From NCBI GenBank assembly GCA_900315315.1, contig OMYT01000006.1, positions 1 through 64,000 on the forward strand: 64,000 nucleotides of DNA. The letters run 5' to 3'. This stretch comes from an uncultured Eubacteriales bacterium (GTDB lineage Bacteria > Bacillota > Clostridia > Christensenellales > Aristaeellaceae). The notes beneath the pieces were generated by a model. It was not told the origin of the DNA, searched no databases, and saw nothing but the letters and a program-made list of their open reading frames with translations. Of the stretch, positions 48,759 to 51,803 are shown piece by piece. A program made the position numbers and the translations under genes. Every line of letters begins with the position of its first letter. The first letter of the stretch is position 1.

Positions 48759-49622
48759 TCATCTCTCGGTGCCGACAAAGAACAGCGCCAGCGTCCCGGG
48801 CCCGGAATGCGCTCCGATGACCGATCCTACGTAGGTAATCAGATCCACCTTCTTGTTGTACTCCTTCTCCAGGATCTCCTTCAGCATCTCCGCGTCCTCG
48901 ATGCAGTCGCCGTGGGAGATAAAGATCGGTGAATGCGGCACGATCGTCTCGCCCAGCATCTCCGCCATCTTCCGGATGGACTTTTTCCGCCCGCGCACCT
49001 GGGTCACCTTGATCAGATGGCCTTCATTGTCCACGTGCAGCACCGGCTTGACGTTCAGCGCGGTACCCAGCAGCGCCGTGGTCCTGCTGATCCGCCCTCC
49101 GCGTTTCAGGTAAACAAGGTCTTCCACCGTAAACCAATGGCAGACATGCAGCAGATCCGCTTCCAGCGCCTTGGCATTCTCTTCCAGGCTCATCCCCTTG
49201 TCCCGGTTCTGCACCGCCAGGTAGACAAACAGGCCTTGGCCCGCGGAAGCCGCCAGTGAATCGATTACGACGATCTTCCGTTCCGGATACTTTTCCTGCA
49301 GCTGTGCGGCTACCTTTTTCCCGTTCTCGCAGGTCACGCTCAGGCCGCTGGAAAATGCCAGGTACAGAATATCCTTTCCCGCTTCCAGAATAGGGGTGAA
49401 TGTCCGGATAAACCGGTCCTCATTCACGCTGGAAGTCTTTGCAATACGCCCGTCGCGCATAGCCTTATAGAATTCCTTGATCGGTTCCTCATGGTCCAGC
49501 TGTTCCTTCCCCGTGTCCGTGAACAGAAAGGCCAGGGGGATCATCTCCACCTTCCACTCTGCCAGCTTTTCGGGCAGGATATCGCATGCGGAATCCGTAA
49601 CCAGAACATAGTTCTCTGCCAT
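48759..49622 (-). CDS. DegV-family fatty-acid-binding protein
   Basis: 287 residues. Typical signatures are YVLVTDSACDILPEKL, TSSVNEDRFIRTFTPIL, LYLAFSSGLSVTCENGK, VIDSLAASAGQGLF, YLKRGGRISR and GAHSGPGTLALFFVG. DegV proteins (FakB-like) hold a fatty acid for phosphorylation by FakA; whether this one serves FakA is unknown, since no fakA is in the window. ATG 49622 is preferred because AGGAGG is placed correctly. A consensus promoter lies upstream, divergent from that of the paaK leader. Confidence 0.92.
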   Translation of the reverse strand: MAENYVLVTDSACDILPEKLAEWKVEMIPLAFLFTDTGKEQLDHEEPIKEFYKAMRDGRIAKTSSVNEDRFIRTFTPILEAGKDILYLAFSSGLSVTCENGKKVAAQLQEKYPERKIVVIDSLAASAGQGLFVYLAVQNRDKGMSLEENAKALEADLLHVCHWFTVEDLVYLKRGGRISRTTALLGTALNVKPVLHVDNEGHLIKVTQVRGRKKSIRKMAEMLGETIVPHSPIFISHGDCIEDAEMLKEILEKEYNKKVDLITYVGSVIGAHSGPGTLALFFVGTER

Positions 49623-49673
49623 GATGTTTCCTCCTGTGCCGGCATGAATCATCTCAGCGCCGACAACTTAAAA

Positions 49674-49702
49674 AATATATCATTCCCCCCCTTATCTGTC
49701 AA
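49674..49702 (-). promoter_or_regulatory. Promoter of the DegV gene
   Basis: On the minus strand TTGACA, 17 bases, TATATT. Confidence 0.78.
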
Positions 49703-49737: not shown

Positions 49738-49766
49738 TTGACAAGCCGCATCCGCTGGCTTATCAT
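49738..49766 (+). promoter_or_regulatory. Promoter of the paaK leader
   Basis: TTGACA (49738-49743), a 17-base spacer and TATCAT (49761-49766). Transcription would start near 49773, about 36 bases before the leader peptide. Confidence 0.82.
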
Positions 49767-49808
49767 TTCCGCAATGGCACGGTTTCCGTGCGGAGAGGAG
49801 AATCCCCC

Positions 49809-49856
49809 ATGAGGTTGTACACTGCTTTCTTCTTTAGCAGGTCAGCGATGGATTAA
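49809..49856 (+). CDS. Phenylalanine-type leader peptide
   Basis: A 15-codon ORF encoding MRLYTAFFFSRSAMD, too short for gene finders. GAGAGGAG lies 8 bases before its ATG, an excellent ribosome site. Codons 7-9 are TTC TTC TTT (three Phe in a row), with one Tyr at codon 4. The Phe codons sit in the loop of a small CTGCT/AGCAG hairpin. The end of the ORF overlaps the 5' arm of the antiterminator, as in ribosome-mediated attenuators such as pheL of E. coli. Sense and position, not length, make it convincing. Confidence 0.82.
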   Translation: MRLYTAFFFSRSAMD

Positions 49857-49919
49857 ACAGACGCCGCAAGCGTTTTGAATCCACCGCCTTTTGAGTTGGA
49901 AAAGGCGGTGGTTTTTTTT
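49844..49919 (+). promoter_or_regulatory. Transcription attenuator of the paaK operon
   Basis: GCGATGGATT (49844-49853) can pair with AATCCACCGC (49878-49887), 9 of 10 pairs, forming an antiterminator. This excludes the terminator below, whose 5' arm overlaps it. A ribosome stalled at the Phe codons (49827-49835) would leave the antiterminator free to form; one reaching the stop codon would cover its 5' arm. Confidence 0.8.
49881..49919 (+). terminator. Intrinsic terminator of the attenuator
   Basis: CCACCGCCTTTT pairs perfectly with AAAAGGCGGTGG (12 bp, 7-base loop), followed by eight T. It lies between the leader peptide and the ligase gene. Confidence 0.93.
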
Positions 49920-50007
49920 GAAGAGCCTACCGCGCTTCATCTGCCCGTCGCTGACCATTCCCAGCGTATCCTTCCAACACATTAAAATCAAGGAGGTACC
50001 CTGTACC

Positions 50008-51312
50008 ATGGCACAGTATTACCAGCCGGAGATCGAAACCGCGCCGCGGGAGAAGATCCTGGAGATGCAGAATGAGAAAATCGTTAAACAGGTCCGTCAT
50101 GTCTGGGACAACGTGCCCTATTACCGTCACCTGATGGAAAAGAAGGGCATTACCCCGGAAGATATCAAAAGTGTAGATGATATCCGCAAGCTTCCCTTCC
50201 TCAGCAAGGACGATCTGCGGGAAACCTATCCCTACGGCCTGCTGGGCACAGACCTGAAAGACTGTGTCCGGATCCATTCCACTTCCGGTACCACCGGCAA
50301 GCGCGTAGTCGCCTTCTATACCCAGCACGATATTGACCTGTGGGAGGACTGCACGGCCCGCGCCATCGTCGCCGCCGGCGGCACCAAAGAGGACGTCGTC
50401 CAGGTCTGCTACGGCTACGGCCTGTTCACCGGCGGTTCCGGCCTCCACGGCGGCTCCCATAAAGTCGGCTGCCTGACCCTGCCCATGTCCTCCGGCAACA
50501 CCGATCGCCAGATCCAGTTCATGATGGATCTGAGCGCCACCATCCTCTGCTGCACCCCCTCCTATGCCGCCTATATCGGCGAGGCCCTGGCGGAACAGGG
50601 GATTAAGCCGGAAGACAACAGCCTGAAAGCCGGTATCTTCGGTGCCGAACCCTGGACGGAGGAAATGCGGCAGGAAATCGAGAAAAGTTTAGGCATCAAG
50701 GCATACGATATCTACGGCCTGACGGAAACCAGCGGCCCCGGGGTTGCCTTCGAGTGCGAAGAGCAAAAAGGCATGCACATCAACGAGGACCATTTCTATG
50801 CAGAAATCATTGATCCGGATACCGGCGAGGTTCTGCCGGAAGGCTCCAAGGGCGAGCTGGTCTTCACTTCCCTGGACAAGGAAGCCTTCCCGCTCCTGCG
50901 GTACCGCACCAAGGACATCTGTGTTCTGAACCGGACACCCTGCTCCTGCGGCCGGACCCATGTGCGCATGTGCAAGCCGATGGGCCGCAGCGATGACATG
51001 ATGATCATCCGCGGCGTCAATGTCTTCCCGAGCCAGATCGAGACCGTGCTCCTGAAGGAAGGCTATACGCCGAACTATCAGATTGTGGTGGACCGCGAGC
51101 GGAATACCGATACCTTCGACATCTTTGTCGAGGTCGCGCCGGATCAGTTCTCCGATCTGATGAGCCACATCCAGCGGATGGAAAAGAGCCTTGAATCTGC
51201 CCTGCGCACCATGCTCGGCATCGGGCCCAAGGTCCATCTTGTTGCCCCCAAGACCATTACCCGCAGCGAAGGCAAAGCCGTCCGCGTCATCGACAAACGC
51301 AAGCTACACTGA
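50008..51312 (+). CDS. paaK: Phenylacetate-CoA ligase
   Basis: 434 residues, adenylate-forming family. It shows the P-loop STSGTTGKRVVAFYT, GYGLFTGGSGLHGG, the A5 motif YDIYGLTETSGPG, LLRYRTKDICVLN, the hinge GRSDDMMIIRGVNVFPSQIE and TRSEGKAVRV near the end. It joins phenylacetate (or another arylacetate) to CoA with ATP. AAGGAGG precedes ATG 50008; the longer frame to 49891 runs through the terminator. Its Phe attenuator and ACT-protein neighbour tie it to aromatic amino acids. In rumen anaerobes phenylacetyl-CoA can be reductively carboxylated to phenylpyruvate for Phe synthesis; the oxidoreductase needed is not in the window. Confidence 0.93.
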   Translation: MAQYYQPEIETAPREKILEMQNEKIVKQVRHVWDNVPYYRHLMEKKGITPEDIKSVDDIRKLPFLSKDDLRETYPYGLLGTDLKDCVRIHSTSGTTGKRVVAFYTQHDIDLWEDCTARAIVAAGGTKEDVVQVCYGYGLFTGGSGLHGGSHKVGCLTLPMSSGNTDRQIQFMMDLSATILCCTPSYAAYIGEALAEQGIKPEDNSLKAGIFGAEPWTEEMRQEIEKSLGIKAYDIYGLTETSGPGVAFECEEQKGMHINEDHFYAEIIDPDTGEVLPEGSKGELVFTSLDKEAFPLLRYRTKDICVLNRTPCSCGRTHVRMCKPMGRSDDMMIIRGVNVFPSQIETVLLKEGYTPNYQIVVDRERNTDTFDIFVEVAPDQFSDLMSHIQRMEKSLESALRTMLGIGPKVHLVAPKTITRSEGKAVRVIDKRKLH

Positions 51313-51377: not shown

Positions 51378-51803
51378 ATGGCTATTACACAGTTATCCAT
51401 CTTCCTGATGAACCAGCCCGGCGCGCTGGTAGATGCAGTAAGCGCCATTTCCGGTGCCGGAGCAAACATCCGGGCCATGAGCCTTGCCGAAGCCAATGAC
51501 TTCGGAATCCTGCGGATCATCGTGTCTGATTCCGACAAGATCTGCAAACTGCTGGGCGACAAGTACCTGATTTCCAAAACAGAAGTTGTGGCCGCCCGGA
51601 TGAGCGACCGCAGCGGTGCCCTCTATCCGATCCTGGTCGCCCTGAGCGATGCCAACATCAACATCGAGTACATGTATGCCTTTACCGGTTCCGATGCAGA
51701 CGAAGCCTACGTCGTCTTCCGCGTCAATGATGTAAAAACCGCCGAGGCTGTCCTCAACTCCAACGGCGTCAGCACCCTTTCCGACGAAAGTTTGAAACTG
51801 TAA
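51378..51803 (+). CDS. Tandem ACT-domain protein
   Basis: 141 residues made of two ACT domains (about 4-70: QLSIFLMNQPGALVDAVSAI; about 72-138: SDRSGALYPILVALSDANINIEYMYAF). ACT domains bind amino acids. Stand-alone tandem ACT proteins often accompany paaK and indolepyruvate/phenylpyruvate ferredoxin oxidoreductase genes in anaerobes. This one follows paaK after 65 bases with only a hairpin repeat between, so it shares the attenuator. It may sense Phe at protein level. CGGGAGG precedes the ATG. Confidence 0.9.
   Translation: MAITQLSIFLMNQPGALVDAVSAISGAGANIRAMSLAEANDFGILRIIVSDSDKICKLLGDKYLISKTEVVAARMSDRSGALYPILVALSDANINIEYMYAFTGSDADEAYVVFRVNDVKTAEAVLNSNGVSTLSDESLKL

Follow-up and report, generated by a model that had tools for sequence, protein, structure and literature searches.

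A putative phenylalanine-responsive leader-peptide attenuator upstream of a phenylacetate-CoA ligase-family gene in Clostridia

The pheA and pheST genes of Proteobacteria are controlled by leader-peptide attenuators. An earlier note on the DNA studied here took ribosome-mediated attenuation to be typical of Proteobacteria and Firmicutes to use mostly T-boxes. This contrast needs correction, as leader-peptide attenuators have already been described in Firmicutes, according to the accessible parts of reports on hisS/hisZ of bacilli (PMC2965389) and ilv-leu of Staphylococcus aureus (PMC5794164).

In gut anaerobes, an indolepyruvate-type ferredoxin oxidoreductase (IOR) occurs adjoining an AMP-forming aryl-acid ligase, and the direction of this pair is disputed (PMC13285125, accessible sections). 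Those sections argue for synthesis in Bacteroides, say that AMP-forming ligases favor acyl-CoA formation, and cite a study that found conversion of phenylalanine (Phe) to phenylacetate by the IOR of Bacteroides thetaiotaomicron. That rumen bacteria make Phe from phenylacetate is the subject that Allison gave in the title of a paper from 1965, which appears in the references seen of PMC7356843. None of the titles and abstract openings listed in our search of the open-licence literature describes a Phe attenuator, or a T-box, on paaK.

Anatomy of the leader upstream of paaK

The window, the whole 64,000-nucleotide stretch that was analyzed, contains a compact leader on its plus strand directly before paaK. 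A promoter-like sequence, TTGACA-17-TATCAT at 49738-49766, is a consensus match only (11 of 12 bases) and says little by itself, because three such sites occurred in 2.7 kb versus 1.4 expected. A ribosome-binding site (GAGAGGAG, 49793-49800), eight bases 5' of the ATG at 49809, precedes a 15-codon open reading frame, MRLYTAFFFSRSAMD (49809-49856, stop TAA at 49854-49856), which has homologous leaders in the genus. Within it are three consecutive Phe codons, TTC TTC TTT at 49827-49835, which recur as FFF or FAF in paaK-type leaders of the genus and are the candidate control codons. Region 2, the 5' arm of the antiterminator (GCGATGGATT, 49845-49854), was placed by stem pattern, alignment, and covariation, and pairs with region 3, the 3' arm (AATCCACCGC, 49878-49887), at nine of ten positions, with a single A-C mismatch. 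Folding of the spacer places a small hairpin (49859-49875) within the antiterminator loop, 49859-49864 pairing with 49870-49875. Region 3 overlaps the 5' arm of an intrinsic terminator (49881-49919), located by folding and alignment, which has a 12-bp stem at 49881-49911 and then eight T at 49912-49919. Since 49881-49887 are common to both stems, terminator and antiterminator are mutually exclusive. The earlier note had described this arrangement, and its promoter, ribosome-binding site, Phe-codon frame, terminator, and mutual exclusion were all recovered; for the antiterminator, its nine pairs and 3' arm stand, and its 5' arm had been placed one base too low. The fold of 49772-49920 reached -53.8 kcal/mol (z -3.40), a value matched in 0 of 200 shuffles.

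These features point to a leader-peptide (ribosome-mediated) transcription attenuator that would sense charged Phe-tRNA, and from the sequence an attenuator as such before paaK is almost certain. When Phe-tRNA is short, the ribosome would stall at the FFF codons, leaving region 2 free to pair with region 3; this pairing would block the terminator, so that paaK and the following ACT gene would be transcribed. With ample Phe, the ribosome would reach the stop at 49854 and cover region 2, and the terminator would form and end transcription. Region 2 extends to the stop codon and lies 3' of the Phe codons; given the size of the ribosome footprint, a region so placed is covered by a ribosome at the stop and free with a ribosome at the control codons. 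The locus thus combines three of the features that define a leader-peptide attenuator: a short frame holding a run of codons for the amino acid of the predicted pathway, two stems that exclude each other, and a region 2 coverable from the stop but not from the control codons, the last with one exception (aroB of genome G031).

The leader region matched no Rfam family at threshold. GcvB was the best sub-threshold match (17.1 bits versus a gathering score of 42), which we took as chance, and on the window's paaK no T-box turned up in a scan for the RF00230 structure and its specifier and bulge. A tRNA at 2639-2726 on the minus strand is the sole at-threshold Rfam match in the window. Back to back with the attenuator promoter lies a divergent degV gene (48759-49702, minus strand), with its own promoter-like site, TTGACA-17-TATATT, at 49702-49674.

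Distribution and covariation of the element

PaaK relatives were present in 49 of 61 genomes by protein search. Following a leader pattern search, a covariance model (R1) built from 19 leaders was run on 45 genomes of the genus and hit the element in 23. In 22 of these the leader is of the paaK type, and all 22 keep the run as FFF or FAF. The earlier note had named loss of the frame or of its Phe content among relatives as evidence that would count against it, and both are retained. FAF replaces FFF in four genomes (G004, G031, G020, and G066), and in the twenty-third genome, G015, the sole leader is of the Tyr/Phe type and stands before a pheA-type gene. The gene that follows the paaK-type leader is paaK in 21 of 22 cases (17 from protein-search coordinates and four from the tree stage); in G031, the contig ends just past a start codon. 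Read backwards, the stem pattern gave no match in the same 45 genomes. A looser leader pattern gave 21 forward versus 3 backward matches in 61 genomes, and two of the 21 forward places (L048 and L049, within long frames) were dropped before counting.

The leader is absent from some genus members with paaK, five of them with paaK 87-90% identical and nine with 71-77%. On a tree of 37 PaaK proteins, in which several forks were poorly supported, the leader label needs two changes, such as a gain plus a loss within one group of five. Outside the genus set, a stem scan of a genome contig collection (84,980 species by its description) returned 41 loci. We discarded 19 of these, which had neither a leader of this kind nor a T run, and accepted the remaining 22 as real. 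Record titles for these read Clostridia, Clostridiales, or Ruminococcus, and several name sheep or goat gut sites. Partial or weak model matches, from the scans of the genus (including the one that covered the genome's own iorAB), the order, and the class, were excluded from all counts. No leader was seen in the ten weak matches that were read (L155, L156, L160, L271, L272, L324, L325, L327, L330, and L332), of which several on the minus strand were poorly centred, so that a weak leader could be missed; those left unread include G073 and G150 (order) and L323, L326, L328, L329, and L331 (class).

When folds were halted before the 3' arm of the terminator, the minimum-energy structure contained the antiterminator in all 28 leaders. 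Within the genus its arms are nearly invariant and covariation is therefore little informative, so we used a wider alignment, A3, of 23 sequences (18 of the 28 in alignment A2 and five new; row L266 was taken as 1008-1132 rather than 1035-1159, its 5' part being absent and its paired columns inside). Between families, changes in the two arms pair up: GCGAUGGAU with AUCCACCGC, GCGAUGUGU with ACGCACCGC, and GCGAUGUGA with UCACACCGC. The stems thus covary among relatives, which the earlier note had put forward for checking. In A3, 97.1% of antiterminator cells were paired, and four pairs had changed on both sides, in 15 cells. The covariation score was 0.243 versus a shuffled mean of 0.081 and was equaled in 0 of 500 shuffles that ignored kinship; since four related genomes within a single genus supply most of the signal, it represents few events. 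Sliding the antiterminator by one to three columns lowered pairing to 27 to 57%. The terminator was 89.8% paired, with three pairs changed on both sides; slid by three columns, it kept the same covariation score but was 73.9% paired. The nested hairpin failed to line up in the alignment, and in single folds it averaged -6.4 versus -3.5 kcal/mol for shuffles, a minority of sequences passing individually at 5%. In two leaders of another family (G213 and G235), the RNA arm is retained even though the peptide runs in a different frame there and ends in SDV, which makes the AMD ending look like a constraint on the RNA.

Probable phenylalanine-specific control of other genes and of paaK in a sister genus

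Six genus members carry the element before Phe-pathway genes whose identities were checked, with Phe- or Tyr/Phe-rich leaders. In G034, the leader MRPYVSGFFFSRSAMD precedes prephenate dehydratase and DAHP synthase. Chorismate mutase-prephenate dehydratase follows leaders with YYYFY (G015), YFYFY (G066), and YYYF (G020), and 3-dehydroquinate synthase (aroB) follows leaders with YAYYYF (G004) and YSYYF (G031). The G031 aroB leader, MKGYSYYFTGAMDERRDASV (L257:380-1100, G031:C45), differs from most in having its stop eight codons past region 2, and for that reason fits the masking model less well.

In a scan of 200 genomes of the order, a second model, R2, had matches at E <= 0.001 in 12: three of the same genus, five with new leaders, and four with partial matches only, two of which were read with no leader seen. 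Of the new leaders, four come from genomes of one genus in another family, all FFF leaders before prephenate dehydratase, and one from a genome of a sister genus in the same family, with FYF before chorismate mutase-prephenate dehydratase. Of 391 genomes across the class, 10 had matches at E <= 0.0001; apart from the genome of the window, one was recognised, G564 of another order, with FFFF before chorismate mutase-prephenate dehydratase. We saw no leader of this kind on the pheA or iorAB of the window's own genome.

In a sister genus, some paaK loci carry a different type of sensor. We searched 17 genomes and scanned the best locus of 16, one locus per genome, with about 1.5 kb of flank. Four of the 16 loci (L281, L307, L308, and L309) have a T-box directly upstream of orthologous paaK-ACT genes, with scores of 94.0 to 101.7 bits, over the Rfam gathering score. 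In all four, the specifier strand has kept GAAGUUCAUUCUG and the bulge UGGU. By eye, we prefer to read the specifier as UUC (Phe) rather than UCA (Ser), which a one-base shift would give, because this register agrees with that of Tyr and Thr boxes and because the UGGU bulge pairs with a discriminator A, not G. The discriminator base is A in Phe tRNA and G in Ser tRNA. A fifth genome (L310), with paaK 91% identical, had no at-threshold T-box, and no Phe-run leader was noticed in 420 bases; in a sixth (G254), paaK is split across contigs. At the gathering score, none of 20 further paaK upstream regions of the order had a T-box, four of these regions being shortened by contig ends (L292, L293, L295, and L301).

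Probable metabolic role and comparison with known systems

The gene behind the attenuator, paaK (50008-51312, plus strand, 434 aa, here PaaK1), belongs to the AMP-forming phenylacetate-CoA ligase family by profile, domain, and PDB matches. It has AMP-binding and AMP-binding_C_2 domains, falls within the PaaK-like ligase superfamily, and is close to solved phenylacetate-CoA ligases (best PDB match 4r1l, E 8.9e-128). Against TIGR02155 it scored 526.9 bits, short of the equivalog cut-off of 646.3. Directly after paaK lies a gene for an ACT-domain pair protein (ACT_8, 51378-51803, plus strand, 141 aa), which adjoins paaK in 46 of 47 loci tested (the exception is L207) and is probably a Phe-sensing or regulatory partner.

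The earlier note had suggested looking for an IOR, and the genome has two IOR operons: IOR1 stands behind an acyl-CoA synthetase, and IOR2 has a second paaK. In the three relatives tested, IOR1, PaaK1, and ACT occur together in one order, and the genome's own IOR1 is 83-86% identical, by subunit, to this clustered IOR1 (37-39% for its own IOR2); PaaK1-ACT is therefore most likely the partner of IOR1. The IOR2 operon (G000:C121:29980-33624, L152) has its own paaK, 42% identical to PaaK1, and no Phe leader was seen in the stretch read. The genome's iorAB gave no match to the element model, so the ligase and IOR halves were not seen to be co-regulated. No leader-type Phe run was found upstream of the three IOR1 operons read; in L259, another gene precedes the IOR1 operon and the operon start is out of view. 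In L260 (G026:C2), the gap between a neighbouring gene and the iorA of an IOR1-PaaK-ACT operon contains, some 150-250 bases before iorA, two terminator-like hairpins with T runs, and no Phe-run leader was seen there.

Together, these genes suggest a route in which PaaK1 would activate phenylacetate to phenylacetyl-CoA and IOR1, encoded elsewhere in the genome, would carboxylate it reductively to phenylpyruvate, a precursor of Phe. The earlier note had looked for a missing or incomplete prephenate branch, which was not borne out: the genome has a full pheA with chorismate mutase, prephenate dehydratase, and ACT domains, and a prephenate dehydratase match was present in 35 of 41 genus genomes. 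With pheA complete, the phenylacetate route would not be needed for Phe, and it looks like a second, scavenging route used beside the shikimate route.

We consider it very probable that paaK-ACT serves Phe synthesis. Activation of phenylacetate under Phe shortage, as proposed in the earlier note, is supported by two unrelated Phe sensors, one of them common to Phe synthesis genes. Its statement that the control makes sense only if the ligase feeds Phe synthesis was too strong, because we infer the ligase substrate and flux direction, as we do the switching itself and the role of the ACT protein. Several points count against the account, among them that PaaK1 falls below the TIGR02155 cut-off and has only a predicted substrate, that pheA is complete, and that the leader is absent from some relatives. 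These would be at home in a different scheme, in which the attenuator responds to Phe but PaaK1-ACT handles another aryl acid, a detoxification, or a CoA-ester signal wanted at low Phe. We regard this as unlikely, as orthologous genes stand under two unrelated Phe-specific sensors, the same element precedes pheA-type genes and aroB, and clustering with an arylpyruvate oxidoreductase points to Phe supply.

If PaaK1 and IOR1 instead worked oxidatively, within a fermentation of Phe to phenylacetate, as reported for the B. thetaiotaomicron IOR in a study cited in the accessible part of PMC13285125, induction at low Phe would have the wrong sign: expression of paaK-ACT under shortage fits Phe synthesis and not Phe breakdown. 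An AMP-forming ligase also spends ATP to form the CoA ester, a point made in the same part of that paper, and the oxidative reading is very improbable. Short frames are frequent, as are terminator-like hairpins, of which 11 candidate sites occurred in 2.7 kb, so the plain terminator of an unrelated transcript could lie beside a chance frame; conservation of the leader, its frame, and its Phe codons, stems that are mutually exclusive and covarying, and the empty backward search of 45 genomes leave next to no room for this. The whole account, in which a Phe-tRNA attenuator turns on paaK-ACT at low Phe for reductive Phe synthesis, is in our judgment highly likely from the sequence.

T-boxes and the leader attenuator coexist in this genome. 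By eye, the specifier is UAC or UGG in three T-boxes (L082, L084, and L085), UAC before aminotransferase-like and transporter-like genes and UGG before an ABC substrate-binding-like gene. Two further T-boxes fall short of the Rfam gathering score, one at G000:C159:5667-5932 (L086, L262:513-2810) with 70.5 bits and a specifier that looks like GUC (Val), the other at G000:C109:13087-13325 (L087, L263:3267-5672) with 68.0 bits and one that looks like AUC (Ile), both judged by eye. They precede HTH-cupin-AMP-ligase fusion genes, one assigned by Pfam on its first 473 residues and the other by eye, which suggests that the products may be acyl-CoA ligases through which Val and Ile are built from branched acids. 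We lean slightly towards a general strategy in this group of gut Clostridia, in which amino acids would be made from fermentation acids and the RNA sensor on each acid-CoA ligase would respond to the amino acid that the ligase serves. If true, gene control would reveal the direction of otherwise reversible pathways.

The mechanism at paaK is of a known kind; as far as we searched, its target gene and a direction read from two unrelated Phe sensors are new. On the disputed direction of IOR and ligase, the two unrelated forms of predicted control by Phe shortage speak for synthesis, and the element offers a way into the genetics of how rumen bacteria make Phe from phenylacetate. The same enzyme pair occurs as the IOR and arylacetate-CoA ligase of Bacteroides, and anabolic use has been proposed for these and for the IOR of methanogens; in the sections seen of PMC13285125 the Bacteroides direction is argued from enzyme type, whereas that of paaK-ACT is argued from gene control. 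The T-box family RF00230, with a Phe specifier at the orthologous sister-genus gene, binds tRNA directly without a leader peptide and is absent from the window's paaK. The pheA and pheST attenuators of Proteobacteria share with the paaK element a Phe-run leader peptide, an antiterminator opposed to a terminator, and control of Phe genes; the element differs in having paaK-ACT as its main target, in its bacterial group, and in matching no Rfam family at threshold. Like hisS/hisZ (PMC2965389) and ilv-leu (PMC5794164), it would be a case of ribosome-mediated attenuation in Firmicutes; in the parts of those reports available, these systems sense His and Leu, whereas the paaK leader would sense Phe and stands on a gene for activating an organic acid.
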